A model generated the notes under the pieces. That model was not told where the DNA came from, made no database searches, and saw only the letters and a list, made by a program, of their open reading frames with translations. The translations under genes were made by a program, and so were the position numbers. Shown in pieces: positions 36,022 to 44,731 of a stretch of 64,000 nucleotides of DNA. Location: positions 1 through 64,000 of the forward strand of contig JAQZBN010000026.1 in NCBI GenBank assembly GCA_029238935.1, given 5' to 3'. This stretch comes from Herbinix sp. (lineage in GTDB: Bacteria; Bacillota; Clostridia; Lachnospirales; Lachnospiraceae). The number at the start of each line of letters is the position of its first letter. The stretch's first letter is position 1.

Positions 36022-37686
36022 ATGAACGAGACAGTAAAGGTAGAGATCAATGGTAAAGTGACTGAATACCCTGTAGGCACTTCTCTATTAACCATCAGCA
36101 GGGAATACCAGAATGAATTTAAGAATGATATTATACTGGCATTTGTTAATAACAAGCTGAGAGAACTATTTAAAACGGTTGAGAAGGATTGTACCATACG
36201 TTTTGTTACCACCGCAGAGGATGCCGGACATAAGACCTATATGCGTGGTCTGGTATTAGTGATGTTAAAAGCAATCTATGCTGAGTTTGGATCGGAAAAT
36301 GTCGATAAAGTTTTAGTGGAATATGCGATAGGAAACGGTCTCTATTGTGAACTTCAGGGAAAAGAAAAAGTAACCGTAAGCAGATTGAATGCAGTGAAAC
36401 GAAGAATGCAGGAAATGATTGATCGTAATACTCCGTTCTTAAAAAGAAGCATAGGAACTGATGAAGCAATTGAATTATTTCGTCAATATCGAATGTTTGA
36501 TAAGGAAAAGTTGTTTCGATATCGTAGAGTTTCAAAAGCCAATATCTATAATTTGGATGGCTTTGAAGATTACTATTATGGGTATATGCCACCCAGTACA
36601 GGGATGTTGAAATACTTCGATTTAATCGAATATGAGGAAGGATTTATACTAGTTCACCCAGAAAAGAAGACGCCTACAGTTGTAGAACCCTTTCTACCGC
36701 AGAAGAAACTCTTTTATACAATGAAAGAGGCAAACCAATGGGGTCGAATGATGGAAATTGACACAGTAGGAGCTTTAAATGATGTGATAGCAAAAGGCAA
36801 AATCAATGATCTGATTCTCGTTCAGGAGGCAATGCAAGAAAAGAAGATAGGAGAAATTGCTGAAGACATAAAAAAGGCTGGTGGAAAGAAATTTATAATG
36901 ATTGCTGGGCCCTCCTCTTCCGGCAAGACTACATTTTCTCATAGACTCTCAATTCAATTAAGAACTTTGGGGTTAAAACCCCATCCTATCGCTGTAGACG
37001 ATTATTTTGTAAACAGAGAAAAGACGCCTAGGGACGAACATGGCAACTTTAATTTTGAAAGTTTGCATGCAATAGACCTTGAGCAATTTAATGAAGATAT
37101 GACAAATTTACTTCATGGTAAAACAGTGGAATTACCTGGTTTTAATTTTAAAACCGGAGTTCGGGAATACAAAGGCAATGACCTTAAGCTAGGACCAGAA
37201 GATATCTTGGTCATTGAAGGTATCCATGGATTAAATGATGCACTTTCTTACTCGCTGTCAAGAGATAGTAAATATAAGATTTATATTAGTGCACTCACTC
37301 AATTAAATGTTGACGAACATAATCGAATACCCACTACTGACGGTAGATTAATTCGCAGAATGGTTCGGGATGCAAGAACAAGAGGAGCTTCCGCTCAGAA
37401 AACAATTTCTATGTGGCCTTCAGTTAGAAAAGGTGAGGAAGAAAATATTTTTCCGTTTCAAGAGGATGCAGATACGATGTTTAATTCTGCATTAATATAT
37501 GAGCTTGCGATATTAAAACAATATGCAGAACCGATTTTGTTTGGAATTGAACGAAATTGTGAAGAGTATGTAGAGGCGAAAAGATTATTGAAATTTTTAG
37601 ATTATTTTATTGGAACCCCCAGTGAAGCAGTTCCAACAAACTCAATTTTAAAAGAGTTTGTAGGAGGTAGCTGTTTCAAGGTATGA
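36022..37686 (+). CDS. TGS-domain uridine kinase-like nucleoside kinase
   Basis: N-terminal TGS-like, IAGPSSSGKTTFSHRL P-loop, DDYFVNREKTPRDEHGNFNFESLHAID. Confidence 0.9.
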   Translation: MNETVKVEINGKVTEYPVGTSLLTISREYQNEFKNDIILAFVNNKLRELFKTVEKDCTIRFVTTAEDAGHKTYMRGLVLVMLKAIYAEFGSENVDKVLVEYAIGNGLYCELQGKEKVTVSRLNAVKRRMQEMIDRNTPFLKRSIGTDEAIELFRQYRMFDKEKLFRYRRVSKANIYNLDGFEDYYYGYMPPSTGMLKYFDLIEYEEGFILVHPEKKTPTVVEPFLPQKKLFYTMKEANQWGRMMEIDTVGALNDVIAKGKINDLILVQEAMQEKKIGEIAEDIKKAGGKKFIMIAGPSSSGKTTFSHRLSIQLRTLGLKPHPIAVDDYFVNREKTPRDEHGNFNFESLHAIDLEQFNEDMTNLLHGKTVELPGFNFKTGVREYKGNDLKLGPEDILVIEGIHGLNDALSYSLSRDSKYKIYISALTQLNVDEHNRIPTTDGRLIRRMVRDARTRGASAQKTISMWPSVRKGEEENIFPFQEDADTMFNSALIYELAILKQYAEPILFGIERNCEEYVEAKRLLKFLDYFIGTPSEAVPTNSILKEFVGGSCFKV

Positions 37687-38048
37687 GCAGCACGATAAGC
37701 CGGGTTCTGTCTTGAATGGTCATCTATCTTGGTTACATGTTACCATGCAACTCAAGTATCCGCTTTCGCAAATACTACGCGACCTACCCTGAAGCACGGC
37801 GGGCTACCGTATCGCTCCATGTTCGGTCTTGCTTCGGGTGGGGTTTACATCTGCCCCTTCTGTTACCAGAAGGGCGGTGGTCTCTTAAGCCACCTTTCCA
37901 TCCTTACCAAAATATCAAAATACTCTGGCGGTATCATCTCTGTTGCACTAGCCTTGGAGTTGCCTCCACCGGACGTTATCCGGCACCCTGCCCTATGAAG
38001 CCCGGACTTTCCTCATCTTATAAAAAGACGCGACCATCTGTACTACTC
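37685..38048 (-). ncRNA. rnpB: RNase P RNA, bacterial class A-like
   Basis: Reverse strand reads GAGGAAAGUCCGGGCUUC...AGGGUGCCGGAUAACGUCCGG...ACAGAACCCGGCUUAUCG; P1 ends GAGUAGUAC/GUGCUGCUC pair. Confidence 0.95.
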
Positions 38049-38159
38049 ACAAAGTGTATTCTACCACGGGATTATAAAAAAGTAAATGACTATCCTTACC
38101 AATCCCTTAAGATAAGATGAATTGTAGATCAGTAATATGATTATGGAATATGCGGTTAT

Positions 38160-38621: not shown

Positions 38622-39323
38622 ATGGAGCAAGTATGTATCTTAGTCGTCGATGATGATAAGGAAATCGCTGATTTGGTAGAAATACATCTGGTTAGTGAAG
38701 GATACGAGGTTCGAAAAGCCAATAGTGCCAGAGAAGGCCTTCAAATATTGGATAATGAAAATATCAAATTAGTTATATTGGATATCATGATGCCTGGTAT
38801 GGATGGGTTAACCATGTGCAAAAAAATTCGTGAGACCAGTACTATTCCAATCATTATGTTAAGTGCGAAGTCAACAGATTTAGATAAAATCATCGGTTTA
38901 GGAACAGGAGCAGATGATTATGTCATTAAACCTTTTAATCCATTAGAATTAACAGCAAGGGTAAAGTCCCAATTGAGAAGATATACTAAATTTAACCCGA
39001 ATTCCTATGAAGAAAAACTAGATAAAGAGATAGTGCTGGATCATCTTACAATTAATAAAGAGAATCATAAAGTGAATGCTTATGGCAGGGATGTAAAGCT
39101 GACTCCAATTGAGTTTGATATTCTATATTTGCTGGCAAGTAATGTTGGAAGGGTATTCTCAACTGATGAAATATTTGAACGGGTATGGAATGAGAAAATA
39201 TATGAAGCGAATAATACGGTTATGGTTCACATTCGTAGATTGAGAGAAAAAATCGAGATGGATTCCCGAGATTCACAGATTATAAAAACGGTATGGGGAG
39301 TGGGATATAAAATTGAACAATAA
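38622..39323 (+). CDS. OmpR/VanR-like response regulator
   Basis: LVVDDDKEIADLVE, LDIMMPGMDG, winged-helix C-terminus GRVFSTDEIFERVW. Confidence 0.93.
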   Translation: MEQVCILVVDDDKEIADLVEIHLVSEGYEVRKANSAREGLQILDNENIKLVILDIMMPGMDGLTMCKKIRETSTIPIIMLSAKSTDLDKIIGLGTGADDYVIKPFNPLELTARVKSQLRRYTKFNPNSYEEKLDKEIVLDHLTINKENHKVNAYGRDVKLTPIEFDILYLLASNVGRVFSTDEIFERVWNEKIYEANNTVMVHIRRLREKIEMDSRDSQIIKTVWGVGYKIEQ

Positions 39324-40479
39324 TATCTTCAGAAGCTTTCGTTTTGAAATCGTATTATATAGTCTCCTTAGTCTTCTCTACACTATGCTTACCATAGCAG
39401 TGGGTGGAGTAGGAATGTATCTGATCTATAGTATACTTAATAAGCAATTTCCGGGAAATCGACTGCTATTAAACTATGAAATAGGAAATATCGCTTCCGG
39501 AAGGGAACTCTCCAAACCGACGATTATATTTCTGGGAATTGCAATATTAATCATTGGAATAGTCTTATTCATAACGTATTTTCTACTACTAACGAAAAAG
39601 TTTGTTACTTATATTAAAGAGATTGCGGAAGGAATTAATGAGATATCTTTAGGGAATTTTGATAATAGAATTGAGATTAAAAACGAAGATGAATTTGCTT
39701 TAATTGCGGACAAGCTAAATCAAATGGCGGAAGATATAAAACAGATTATGGAGAATGAACGTCGCAGTGAGGTTGCTAAAAATGAACTGATCACCAGTGT
39801 GGCCCATGACCTCCGAACCCCTTTAACTTCTATCATCGGATATTTGGACCTGATCTCTAACAAAGACTTACAACCGGATACACAGAAAAAGTATTTTGAG
39901 ATTGCTTATGGCAAATCAAAAAGACTTGAGAAATTGATTGAAGACCTATTTACTTATACCAAATTCAACTTTGGAGAAGTGGCAGCTACTTATACAGAAG
40001 TAGATATTGTAAAACTTATTAATCAGCTCCTAGATGAATTTTACCCAAGCTTTGAAGAGTTTCATCTGGAGTATGAATTTAAATTCAGTAAAAGTAGTGC
40101 AGTAATCACTGCAGATGGAGATCTCTTAGCAAGAGCATTTGCTAATCTGATCAGCAATGCAATAAAATACGGTAAGGATGGAAAATGGGTTCGATTACAT
40201 TTGTTAACAAGTGATGATCATGTGGTTATTACCCTTAAGAATTATGGAGAACCGATTCCTAAGAAGGACCTAGATTATATCTTTCAACGATTTTATCGGG
40301 TTGAAACCTCAAGATCCAGTGAAACAGGAGGAAGCGGATTAGGGTTAGCGATAGCGCAGAGTATAATTAAAATGCACGAAGGAACAATTACAGCGCAAAG
40401 CGATACAGAAGGTACCATATTTACTGTAGTACTTCCATTTCAGAACAAAATGAACCGTAAGGAAACTGCATTGAAATAA
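39313..40479 (+). CDS. HAMP sensor histidine kinase (VanS-like)
   Basis: Two TM helices, HAMP, SVAHDLRTPLTSIIGYLDLI H-box, GSGLGLAIAQSI; 11-nt overlap with the response regulator. Confidence 0.93.
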   Translation: MNNNIFRSFRFEIVLYSLLSLLYTMLTIAVGGVGMYLIYSILNKQFPGNRLLLNYEIGNIASGRELSKPTIIFLGIAILIIGIVLFITYFLLLTKKFVTYIKEIAEGINEISLGNFDNRIEIKNEDEFALIADKLNQMAEDIKQIMENERRSEVAKNELITSVAHDLRTPLTSIIGYLDLISNKDLQPDTQKKYFEIAYGKSKRLEKLIEDLFTYTKFNFGEVAATYTEVDIVKLINQLLDEFYPSFEEFHLEYEFKFSKSSAVITADGDLLARAFANLISNAIKYGKDGKWVRLHLLTSDDHVVITLKNYGEPIPKKDLDYIFQRFYRVETSRSSETGGSGLGLAIAQSIIKMHEGTITAQSDTEGTIFTVVLPFQNKMNRKETALK

Positions 40480-40799: not shown

Positions 40800-41651
40800 T
40801 TATTTATCTGAAACATCTGAAAACAGGGTTAATACCTTTCTTGATATGCGAATCCTTTGATAAAGGGAAGCATAGGAAATCTCATCTAATTCATCAATAT
40901 AATTCTGCGGGTAATTCTTTGAAAAGCCATTTTGTTTAAGATAATAGGAGGCTTTATTGTACGCAACAGCTGCTTCTACATCGGTAGAATATCTTCCGAT
41001 CAGGTAATCACCGTTAATATGTATCTTAGCCAGGTACATAAATCTTCCATTTTCCCATACTTTTGTAACTCCATGGTATCGATTAATAAGTTCGATATTC
41101 CCATATCTAAAATCAGTAGAGTCGCCATTTGCAAAAGTAAAATCACGACCGCAAACAGCATAAATTTTAATACCGTAGCGGGATAAGACGCTTACCTGCA
41201 TTCCATAATCCGAAACGAATAGATGGCCACCTCGCTTCATGATCTTATGATTCGCATAGTAGAAAAGATCATCTACATCAAATTTCAAAATATCATCTCG
41301 ATTTAAATAGTATAAGAAATATCTCTTTTTCAGATAGATTGGATTTTTAAAATACAGCTTATTATCCCTAAAATTAATTAAGACAACCCATTTTTCAAGA
41401 GAGATGGGGCAAGAACTTTGATAATGGTCGATCTGATATAAGGTTGAGTCGTTTAGAATATTACCAGCATATAAATACGCCGCATTAGCTATTTCTTCTG
41501 AAGTAAAGCTTCCAAGACTAATATGCTTACCACGGTAAGTTATGGATGCACGGTAATAAAACGAAGCATCTTTTTTCTGCGCTTGATAAACGCCAGGCAA
41601 TAAACTCATAAGAATCCTCTCCATCGTTGTAAGCTTAGTTTCGTATTTCAT
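40800..41651 (-). CDS. AP2 / degenerate HNH / AP2 domain protein
   Basis: Two AP2-like segments (GVYQAQKKDASFYYRASITYRGKHISLGSFTSEEIANAAYLYA and GVTKVWENGRFMYLAKIHINGDYLIGRYSTDVEAAVAYNKAS) flanking an HNH-like GRDFTFANGDSTDFRYGNIELIN without catalytic His. Confidence 0.8.
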   Translation of the reverse strand: MKYETKLTTMERILMSLLPGVYQAQKKDASFYYRASITYRGKHISLGSFTSEEIANAAYLYAGNILNDSTLYQIDHYQSSCPISLEKWVVLINFRDNKLYFKNPIYLKKRYFLYYLNRDDILKFDVDDLFYYANHKIMKRGGHLFVSDYGMQVSVLSRYGIKIYAVCGRDFTFANGDSTDFRYGNIELINRYHGVTKVWENGRFMYLAKIHINGDYLIGRYSTDVEAAVAYNKASYYLKQNGFSKNYPQNYIDELDEISYASLYQRIRISRKVLTLFSDVSDK

Positions 41652-42166
41652 ATGTTCCGCTGATACATTAACTATAGCAAAGCAAATCGATTATAGCAAG
41701 TTGTATTGATTATCCTTTGAATATGATATGCCCCTAGTTTTTTGTATAAATTTTTTAATTAATTAGTATCTGGAGAGGCTGTTTGTAATATCATGGTAGT
41801 AAATAATTAATAAATTATTACATTGATTTACTGAAGGGAAACACAGATTTTTAAGTAAAATAAATGCTTTCAAAGAAAAAAATGAATAAACTAGAAAATT
41901 AGGGCGTAAAATATTTAATAAGTCCTTAATAATTTGTTAAAATTATCTTGTTTAATCTATACAAAGACTATAAGTTTATTATGGACTCTAATTGGCATTA
42001 TTAACCTGAAAAGTAAAATCATGTCAGATGTCTTAATGTGATATATAACGAAAATGGAACAGGCTTATTGACACAAAACATCAGCTTGCCTATAATGCAG
42101 ATTGTATTACGGCAGTCCCAGATAATGGTAACAACTTATCCAAATCAAAAAAGAGAGGAACAATTT

Positions 42167-43117
42167 ATGTCTAAGATAAACACGTTTCTTCAAAAGAGAA
42201 AAATGACAAGCGGTCAGTGTGGAATTATTATGATGATCGTTGCCTATGCATTATCCTTTATTCTGTTAGTTGTGGGTTCTGATTGCATCTTCAGTATCAG
42301 TTCCAGTGCAGCAGGAATTGGCGATAAGTCGGATGAAGTTACGAAACAGATAAGCGCAGACAACGAGGAGGAAATGTCACAAATAAATTTTTATCCGTAT
42401 TGTGATCCATCTGTTGTTGAAACAAAGTTAGAAAATTTGTCTCATTTTAAACTCAATAAATCTAGTAACGTACAGGAAGAAAAAGGAGAATCATCTGTAG
42501 AAATTCTGAGCCAGGATACTTATTGGATGTTTGGCAATGCAATGGATACAAAAGAGTATTCATTAATGCAGGCACAGATTGAAGAAGTAGCACAGAGTTT
42601 AATTGAAAATGAGAAGAAAGAAAAAGAAGAGAAGCAACAAAAGGAAAAAGAAGAGAAAGAAAAGAAAGAAGAAGACACCATAGAAAGTTTTAGTACTTCC
42701 GATAAAGCTACCACTTCTGTTTACTCTGCTTCTAAGGAAGAAGTGAAGATGCTGGAACGAATTGTGGAGGCAGAAGCATCCGGGGAAGATATGATTGGTA
42801 AAATTCTAGTTGCTAATGTAATTCTCAATCGAACACAGGATGATGAATTTGCTGATACGATTGAAGGCGTAATATTTCAGAAAGTTAATGGTGAATATCA
42901 GTTCTCACCAATTTCAGATGAACGTTATTGGTCAGTCAAGATATCCAAGGAAACAAAGGAAGCTGTGAAAAGAGCTTTATCAGGAGAAGACTATTCGGAA
43001 GGTGCTGTGTACTTTATGGCTAGAAAAAGTACAAAGTCCAGTAGTGCTAAATGGTTTGACCGAAATCTAGAATGGTTATTTAAACACGGTGGTCACGAGT
43101 TTTTTAAAGATAATTAA
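42167..43117 (+). CDS. Cell wall hydrolase, SleB/CwlJ-like domain
   Basis: N-terminal TM, Lys/Glu-rich coil, RIVEAEASGEDMIGKILVANVILNR...FSPISDERYW...GAVYFMARK; start ATG 42167. Confidence 0.88.
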   Translation: MSKINTFLQKRKMTSGQCGIIMMIVAYALSFILLVVGSDCIFSISSSAAGIGDKSDEVTKQISADNEEEMSQINFYPYCDPSVVETKLENLSHFKLNKSSNVQEEKGESSVEILSQDTYWMFGNAMDTKEYSLMQAQIEEVAQSLIENEKKEKEEKQQKEKEEKEKKEEDTIESFSTSDKATTSVYSASKEEVKMLERIVEAEASGEDMIGKILVANVILNRTQDDEFADTIEGVIFQKVNGEYQFSPISDERYWSVKISKETKEAVKRALSGEDYSEGAVYFMARKSTKSSSAKWFDRNLEWLFKHGGHEFFKDN

Positions 43118-43240: not shown

Positions 43241-44731
43241 ATGGACCTTATGTATCAGAGTACCAGAGACAATGGCAAAAAGGTATTTGCTTCCCAGGCG
43301 ATTTTACAGGGACTATCTTCAGATGGAGGATTATTCGTACCGGAAACGCTGCCCCATTTAACCTTATCAATGAATGAACTTTCAGCCATGTCCTATCAGG
43401 AACTGGCTTATGAAGTAATGAAACTTTTTTTGACGGATTACACGGAAGAAGAGTTAAAAGATTGTATCAATAAAGCATATGATGATAAGTTTGACACCAC
43501 AGAGATTGCACCACTGAAAAAGGCAGGACAAACATATTATCTGGAGTTGTTTCATGGATCTACGATAGCCTTTAAGGATATGGCATTATCAATTTTGCCG
43601 CACCTCTTAACAACCGCAGCAAGAAAGAATAATGTCAAAGATGAAATTGTTATATTAACAGCAACTTCAGGAGATACCGGTAAGGCAGCCTTAGCAGGCT
43701 TTGCTGACGTAGAAGGAACCAAAATCATTGTATTTTATCCCAAAAACGGAGTTAGTAGTGTTCAGGAAAAGCAGATGATAACTCAAAAGGGTGATAATAC
43801 AGATGTGATCGGTATTCTGGGTAATTTTGACGATGCTCAGACCGGAGTTAAACTTATGTTTAATAATAAAGAGTTGGCAGATCGAATGAAGAATGCTGGA
43901 TATCTATTCTCCTCTGCTAATTCGATTAATATAGGCAGATTAGTACCTCAAATCGTATATTATGTCTACGCTTATGCATCATTATATAAGAAGAAAGAGG
44001 TTTCAGCTGGAGAAAAAATCAATTTTGTGGTGCCTACAGGAAACTTTGGTAATATTTTAGCGGCATATTATGCAAAATGTCTTGGAATCCCAATTGATAA
44101 ACTGATTTGTGCCTCCAATGAAAATAAAGTTTTGTATGACTTTTTTTCTACGGGCCGTTATGATCGAAATAGAGAGTTTGTATTAACGTCATCACCTTCT
44201 ATGGATATCTTGGTATCAAGCAATTTGGAACGTCTGATTTACCACATTGCAGAAAATGATTCTGAGAAAACAGCAGAGCTGATGAAAGCCCTTTCTTCTC
44301 AGGGTAGCTATGATATTACAGAAAAGATGAAAGAACATCTCAATGATTTCGTAGGGGGATGGGCTGATACAGAAAAGACAAAGAAAGCGATTGAAAAAGT
44401 ATATAAAGAATCTGGATATGTCATTGATACACATACTGCGGTTGCAGCTAGTGTTTATGAAAGTTATGCCACTAATTCCGGTGATAAAAACAAAGCAGTT
44501 ATTATTTCCACTGCAAGTCCTTATAAATTTTCAGAAAATGTATTGAAAGCAATTTATCAAGGGGAGGTACCGGAGGATGATTATGATCAAGCTGAATTAC
44601 TTAGTAAGTTATCTGGTACGAATATTCCAAGTGCAGTCGAGGAAATACATTTTGCACCTGTTCTGCATAAAAAAGTATGTGAAGTTGGTAAAATGCAGAA
44701 GTTTGTAGAAGATATTCTTAAAATAATCTAA
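43241..44731 (+). CDS. thrC: Threonine synthase
   Basis: FHGSTIAFKDMALSILP, TATSGDTGKAALAGF, PTGNFGNILAAYYAK. Confidence 0.95.
   Translation: MDLMYQSTRDNGKKVFASQAILQGLSSDGGLFVPETLPHLTLSMNELSAMSYQELAYEVMKLFLTDYTEEELKDCINKAYDDKFDTTEIAPLKKAGQTYYLELFHGSTIAFKDMALSILPHLLTTAARKNNVKDEIVILTATSGDTGKAALAGFADVEGTKIIVFYPKNGVSSVQEKQMITQKGDNTDVIGILGNFDDAQTGVKLMFNNKELADRMKNAGYLFSSANSINIGRLVPQIVYYVYAYASLYKKKEVSAGEKINFVVPTGNFGNILAAYYAKCLGIPIDKLICASNENKVLYDFFSTGRYDRNREFVLTSSPSMDILVSSNLERLIYHIAENDSEKTAELMKALSSQGSYDITEKMKEHLNDFVGGWADTEKTKKAIEKVYKESGYVIDTHTAVAASVYESYATNSGDKNKAVIISTASPYKFSENVLKAIYQGEVPEDDYDQAELLSKLSGTNIPSAVEEIHFAPVLHKKVCEVGKMQKFVEDILKII

Follow-up and report, generated by a model that had tools for sequence, protein, structure and literature searches.

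Homing endonucleases as a probable source of host DNA-binding proteins

The taming of a homing endonuclease by its host is a kind of event already known in bacteria. WhiA is a transcription factor derived from a LAGLIDADG homing endonuclease (PMC3781837): in Gram-positive bacteria, an invasive endonuclease without catalysis has become a conserved single-gene regulator, which binds DNA by an added HTH. Phages carry another kind of homing endonuclease, the HNH-AP2 type (PHROG_99 and others; Pfam HNH_3 plus AP2), in which a core NGD..D.R..N(I/L) lies ahead of a C-terminal AP2 domain. An origin from HNH-AP2 endonucleases has been proposed for plant AP2/ERF factors, and members of the plant AP2 subfamily, such as WRI1 and TEM1, contain the AP2 fold, in two units in the case of WRI1.

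The stretch of 64,000 nucleotides from a Herbinix sp. contig analyzed here (hereafter, the window) contains a gene, called the AP2-dead HNH-AP2 gene or simply the AP2 gene below, whose product resembles the phage enzymes in its C-terminal AP2 domain and in the core ahead of it. In contrast to those enzymes, the catalytic His and Asn are replaced, the HNH helix and linker are deleted, an extra AP2 domain is present at the N-terminus, and the gene is a non-mobile, single-copy resident of a conserved host chromosomal locus. The likeness to WhiA lies in the path from an invasive endonuclease without catalysis to a conserved single-gene protein of Gram-positive bacteria, for which a regulator role may likewise be supposed. 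However, the nuclease folds are unrelated, and DNA binding is predicted here to use AP2 domains that intact nucleases already bear, unlike the added HTH of WhiA; the family has no Pfam match to the LAGLIDADG and HTH domains of WhiA, and its predicted fold differs. The AP2 fold is shared with WRI1 and TEM1, and the two AP2 units with WRI1, whereas the present protein is bacterial and a conserved domain of about 125 residues separates its AP2 domains; no sign of common descent with plant AP2/ERF proteins as a transcription factor was seen.

No Pfam or NCBIfam model names this family, and neither the family nor any stand-alone tamed HNH-AP2 protein in bacteria was found described in the freely accessible literature searched. 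A dead HNH between two AP2 domains, fixed in the host and nearly confined to flagellated Lachnospirales, appears to be new. If this account is true, the family would follow WhiA as a second, independent instance of a homing endonuclease becoming a host regulator, from another nuclease fold, and would mirror in bacteria the origin proposed for the plant AP2/ERF factors.

The gene and its surroundings

The open reading frame at 40800-41651 belongs to the minus strand, the plus strand being dense in stops there. The longest frame, up to 41651, has 283 codons for amino acids, and in an orthologue alignment the N-termini of the orthologues match M15 of this frame. Since the ATG at 41607-41609 (minus strand) is also preceded by a Shine-Dalgarno-like GGAGAGG at 41616-41622, the protein probably has 269 amino acids with a start at 41609. 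A preliminary description of this DNA was right about the existence of the reading frame, but overlooked that it lies on the minus strand and that the HNH helix and linker are missing, as described below. The features are as follows.

37680-38049, minus strand: RNase P RNA gene, rnpB (RF00010, 278.8 bits)
38622-40479, plus strand: response regulator and histidine kinase of a two-component system, located between rnpB and the AP2 gene
40800..41609, minus strand: AP2-dead HNH-AP2 gene, probably 269 aa plus stop (orthologue starts, Shine-Dalgarno)
40803..40925, minus strand: C-terminal helical tail, residues 229-269 (AlphaFold helices 243-252 and 257-268)
40926..41075, minus strand: second AP2 domain, residues 179-228 (AlphaFold, hhalign, WRI1 match)
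41076..41450, minus strand: central conserved domain, residues 54-178, with the degenerate HNH core at its end (invariant residues, AlphaFold)
41082..41144, minus strand: degenerate HNH core, residues 156-176, DFTFANGDSTDFRYGNIELIN, His to Phe159, Asn to Phe167, helix and linker deleted (column counts, alignment)
41451..41600, minus strand: first AP2 domain, residues 4-53, three strands and a helix (AlphaFold, hhalign, PHROG_99)
41671..41680, minus strand: TTGCTATAGT, putative extended -10 promoter element some 60 nt ahead of the start codon (read from the sequence)
42167..43117, plus strand: cell wall hydrolase, PF07486, SleB/CwlJ-like, divergent neighbor (Pfam E 2.8e-24, synteny)
43241..44731, plus strand: thrC, threonine synthase, conserved neighbor (Pfam, synteny)

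Elements resembling TGNTATAGT, similar to the putative -10 element, are found upstream of orthologues, too.

Two AP2 domains

The preliminary description had proposed two AP2-like modules that align with each other. Since Pfam and NCBIfam searches with the single sequence of the window protein give no match, that reading caught what standard annotation overlooks. Other searches with the window protein alone matched the first AP2 domain to PHROG_99, “HNH endonuclease” (4e-9), and the second to plant WRI1 (0.0012). Across the family, PHROG_99 is matched in 21/21 members and Pfam AP2 in 7/21 (best 9.9e-6), and a search with the family gives WRI1 as the best PDB sequence match (E 8.8e-7). In profile-profile comparison by hhalign, the two modules align with each other far beyond chance (E 2e-10), and with the AP2 domain of intact viral HNH-AP2 nucleases at 3.4e-11 for the first and 6.8e-11 for the second.

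Structure prediction had been named beforehand as a check, for which an absence of AP2 folds would count against the proposal. The AlphaFold model, built from 77 sequences with a mean pLDDT of 95.3 and a pTM of 0.84, has two beta-beta-beta-alpha AP2 units, at residues 7-52 and 181-226, which flank the central domain, and a helical tail. The best PDB folds for the model are the AP2 domains of plant TEM1, at an E-value (2e-3) that falls below usual whole-chain confidence because the match is confined to the small AP2 units. Among the viral library matches below 1e-3, named ones are for the most part HNH endonucleases or AP2/ERF proteins. The identification of both modules as AP2 domains is firm.

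A degenerate HNH-like core in the central domain

Just ahead of the second AP2 domain lies a core of the form F-x-NGD-x-x-D-(F/Y)-R-x-x-N-I. With an HNH_3-AP2 protein of a sister genome (L227 in G012) and its viral relatives as the intact reference, the degenerate core ANGDSTDFRYGNIELIN aligns with INHDKLDNRRCNLRVAT of the intact proteins and is colinear with them; in the hhalign alignment, a gap of 16 residues comes after the core block, in place of the HNH helix and linker of the intact proteins, and AP2 follows. The position of the catalytic His, which adjoins the aligned block, is Phe159 in the numbering of the 269-residue protein, and Phe occupies it in 131/131 homologues. The catalytic Asn position, residue 167, is Phe in 92, Tyr in 24, Leu in 12, and Met in 3 homologues, and Asn in 0/131. 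Thus the replacement of both catalytic residues, which had been proposed from the window protein, holds family-wide. The AlphaFold model has no helix between strands 172-174 and 181-186, where the beta-beta-alpha metal fold would have its helix. Because of these family-wide replacements and the missing helix in the predicted structure, it is very unlikely that any family member is an active nuclease.

The origin of the central domain is a subtler matter. Compared with the intact HNH profile, the center alone gives an E-value of 0.004, against 0.08-0.29 for reversed controls, and Pfam HNH_3 appears across the family at 0.12 in one member only. HNH ancestry of the center taken by itself is therefore only weakly significant, and its nuclease origin, for which we see moderate support, is argued from the motif, its position, and the AP2 context, less from statistics. 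The HNH-AP2-like layout put forward in the preliminary description accordingly stands as to colinearity with intact proteins, but is weak as to homology of the center alone.

Distribution, inheritance, and conserved loci

The AP2 gene is present in 111/392 Lachnospirales genomes, in six families, and no orthologue was found in the sampled genomes outside Lachnospirales. Orthologues occur in 28/33 other genomes of the same genus, and the source genome has the gene in a single copy without a paralogue. A scan of GTDB genomes gives at least 551 relatives; among the 80 listed, most are Lachnospiraceae, and they include Mobilitalea, Herbinix, Lachnoclostridium phytofermentans, and Butyrivibrio. Cultivated species (L. 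phytofermentans, Butyrivibrio) carry this single-copy, non-mobile gene, so that its role is directly testable. Of the absences within the genus, those in G008 and G033 may stem from incomplete assembly, since contigs end near the locus there; G010, G028, and G030 have truly lost the gene, so that incomplete assembly does not account for all of them.

In Lachnospiraceae and in families f4, f21, and f22, the gene is divergent from the cell wall hydrolase and thrC. In f24 it lies beside gyrase/topoisomerase-like genes and in f2 beside transketolase (these neighbors were named by eye from the sequence), so that the loci are family-specific and conserved, and adjoin core genes. The two-component system at this place is variably present among genomes of the genus; in several related genomes without it, the AP2 gene is directly upstream of rnpB, in the same direction.

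The gene is under purifying selection, with a median dN/dS of 0.07 for close pairs. It is vertically inherited, and co-inherited with thrC: distances for the two genes are correlated (Mantel r 0.59, 0/2000 permutations). These data bear on the possibility that the gene is a selfish HNH-AP2 homing endonuclease, its decaying copy, or a phage gene, for which kinship to HNH-AP2 nucleases and the intact HNH-AP2 genes in a sister genome (L227 in G012) may speak. However, catalytic residues are gone in all 131 homologues, selection is purifying, the gene is kept singly at conserved loci, a plasmid search gives no match to it, and what few “viral” matches there are come from short contigs lacking annotation or have the gene at a contig end. 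For example, the two full-length “Bacteriophage sp.” GenBank records with the gene, MT836856.1 (L161) and MT837267.1 (L162), are short unannotated fecal contigs, the former of which probably is host chromosomal DNA filed as phage, since it also carries thrC; on the single viral contig with a true family member, the gene is at the contig end. We therefore reject a selfish or phage gene as highly improbable. Sporadic distribution next to introns or phage had been named in the preliminary description as a sign of a simple decaying selfish element; what is found is a single-copy chromosomal gene with conserved synteny, vertical inheritance, and no paralogue.

An element upstream of the gene

In most genomes of the Herbinix group, a paired element, TTATACATATTCTAC...TAGTACG, with copies about 41 bp apart, is found between the AP2 gene and the hydrolase gene; a TTCTAC...TAGTA-like pair is seen, e.g., in L053, L058, L280, L282, and L283. 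It is unrecognizable at the AP2 locus of the window's own genome, was not found at the fla/che operon in any of five genomes, and is retained in three genomes after loss of the AP2 gene. A regulon search with the motif pattern gave counts only about twice those of a reversed-pattern control. We reject autoregulation through this element as an operator, as it cannot be recognized in the window, survives loss of the gene, and is not at fla/che.

The same data weigh on a more modest role, a local regulator of the divergent hydrolase and of itself without a wider regulon. The divergent arrangement, kept in Lachnospiraceae and three other families, and the conserved intergenic element in the Herbinix group are in its favor, but the neighbors in f2 and f24 are transketolase and topoisomerase genes, and the element outlasts the AP2 gene in three genomes and cannot be recognized in the window. 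A purely local role consequently seems improbable to us.

Co-occurrence with flagella

The presence of the AP2 gene was compared with that of FlhA and, as a control, SpoIVA over the same 392 genomes. FlhA is found in 110/111 carriers versus 128/281 non-carriers (Fisher 1.8e-28, kinship ignored); the single carrier without it is G239, a 75% complete assembly. In Lachnospiraceae (f1), FlhA is present in 69/69 carriers versus 12/55 non-carriers, the latter numbering at least 55. By genus, the proportions in this family are 31/31 for carriers and 8/31 for non-carriers, taken among the matches listed (p 2.6e-10). Within genus g33, seven of the genomes listed have both the AP2 gene and FlhA and three have neither, and in g60 one genome has both and one has neither. 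SpoIVA follows the opposite trend in f1, with 25/69 carriers versus 48/55 of the at least 55 non-carriers. A link to sporulation, prompted by the SleB-like neighbor, is rejected on account of this inverse association in Lachnospiraceae.

The gene is dispensable for having flagella, since its clean loss is seen in three genomes of the same genus that do have them. Furthermore, E-values of FlhA in 11/12 flagellated f1 non-carriers (G129, G229, G298, G316, G334, G371, G382, G397, G400, G416, and G417), taken among the matches listed, are weaker than that of every f1 carrier; judged from these scores, the non-carriers possibly represent a second lineage of flagella.

A domesticated DNA-binding protein of nucleoid type, or a general regulator, might simply have disappeared along with flagella from lineages that are host-adapted or streamlined, and have no part in motility regulation. 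The FlhA association, computed without a genome tree, is dominated by large clades; 128 flagellated genomes do without the gene, three of the same genus after its loss; and no binding motif was found at the fla/che operon, where the candidate element was searched and the true motif of the protein may differ. Against this stand the joint absences within g33 and g60, the presence of FlhA in nearly every carrier, and the fact that retention does not track sporulation, another dispensable programme. We regard such a regulator outside motility as unlikely, yet as the most serious competitor of the reading favored here, a domesticated regulator tied to motility.

Possible function

Domestication is well supported: the earlier idea of a homing endonuclease that keeps both AP2 domains without a nuclease agrees with the predicted AP2 folds, the lost catalytic residues, and the vertical, single-copy gene. 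The steps beyond it are graded. An HNH-AP2 endonuclease would have lost its nuclease and become a DNA-binding regulator of the host. The family is basic (median pI 9.3), and from the model, with two AP2 domains around a rigid-looking center, the protein would most likely bind a bipartite DNA site, each half read by one module around the remodeled, catalytically dead HNH-containing domain, and act in trans. The strongly conserved central domain may fix the geometry of the modules, or bind a partner or ligand. Action in trans is also suggested by the variation of neighbors between families. A transcription-factor or nucleoid function is what we infer from these features.

Because the gene is kept in single copy in flagellated Lachnospirales, its most likely job would be the control of motility-tied genes in trans, a role proposed from comparative genomics. 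This link to flagella goes beyond the preliminary description, and its near-exclusive character offers a concrete first hypothesis for function. A domesticated HNH-AP2 nuclease acting as a host DNA-binding regulator, most likely of motility-tied genes in trans, is to us a reasonably probable account; that it founds a new class of bacterial transcription factors, from an HNH-AP2 homing endonuclease and controlling flagellar motility across Lachnospirales, is put forward tentatively, with the balance somewhat against it. To our knowledge, Lachnospirales have few named motility regulators besides CodY, CsrA, and sigma-28. Flagellins of this bacterial group are studied as gut immune signals. In a published survey that covers the motility genes of Roseburia and Eubacterium (PMC3720852), CodY, CsrA, and sigma factors are discussed, and searching its text gave no AP2 protein.

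Variant genes and records

One near-complete genome (G282:C1:3450508-3451286, L193) has the AP2 gene broken up into two frames that overlap, the result of either a frameshift or a sequencing error. A contig titled “Anaerolineaceae bacterium MAG4” (SHOH01000113.1, L064) has a Herbinix-like locus and is probably mis-binned. Relatives in family f2 (L047, L177-L181) are longer, with 345-373 aa, and have a third AP2 domain at the C-terminus (E 5e-10 to 6e-12).
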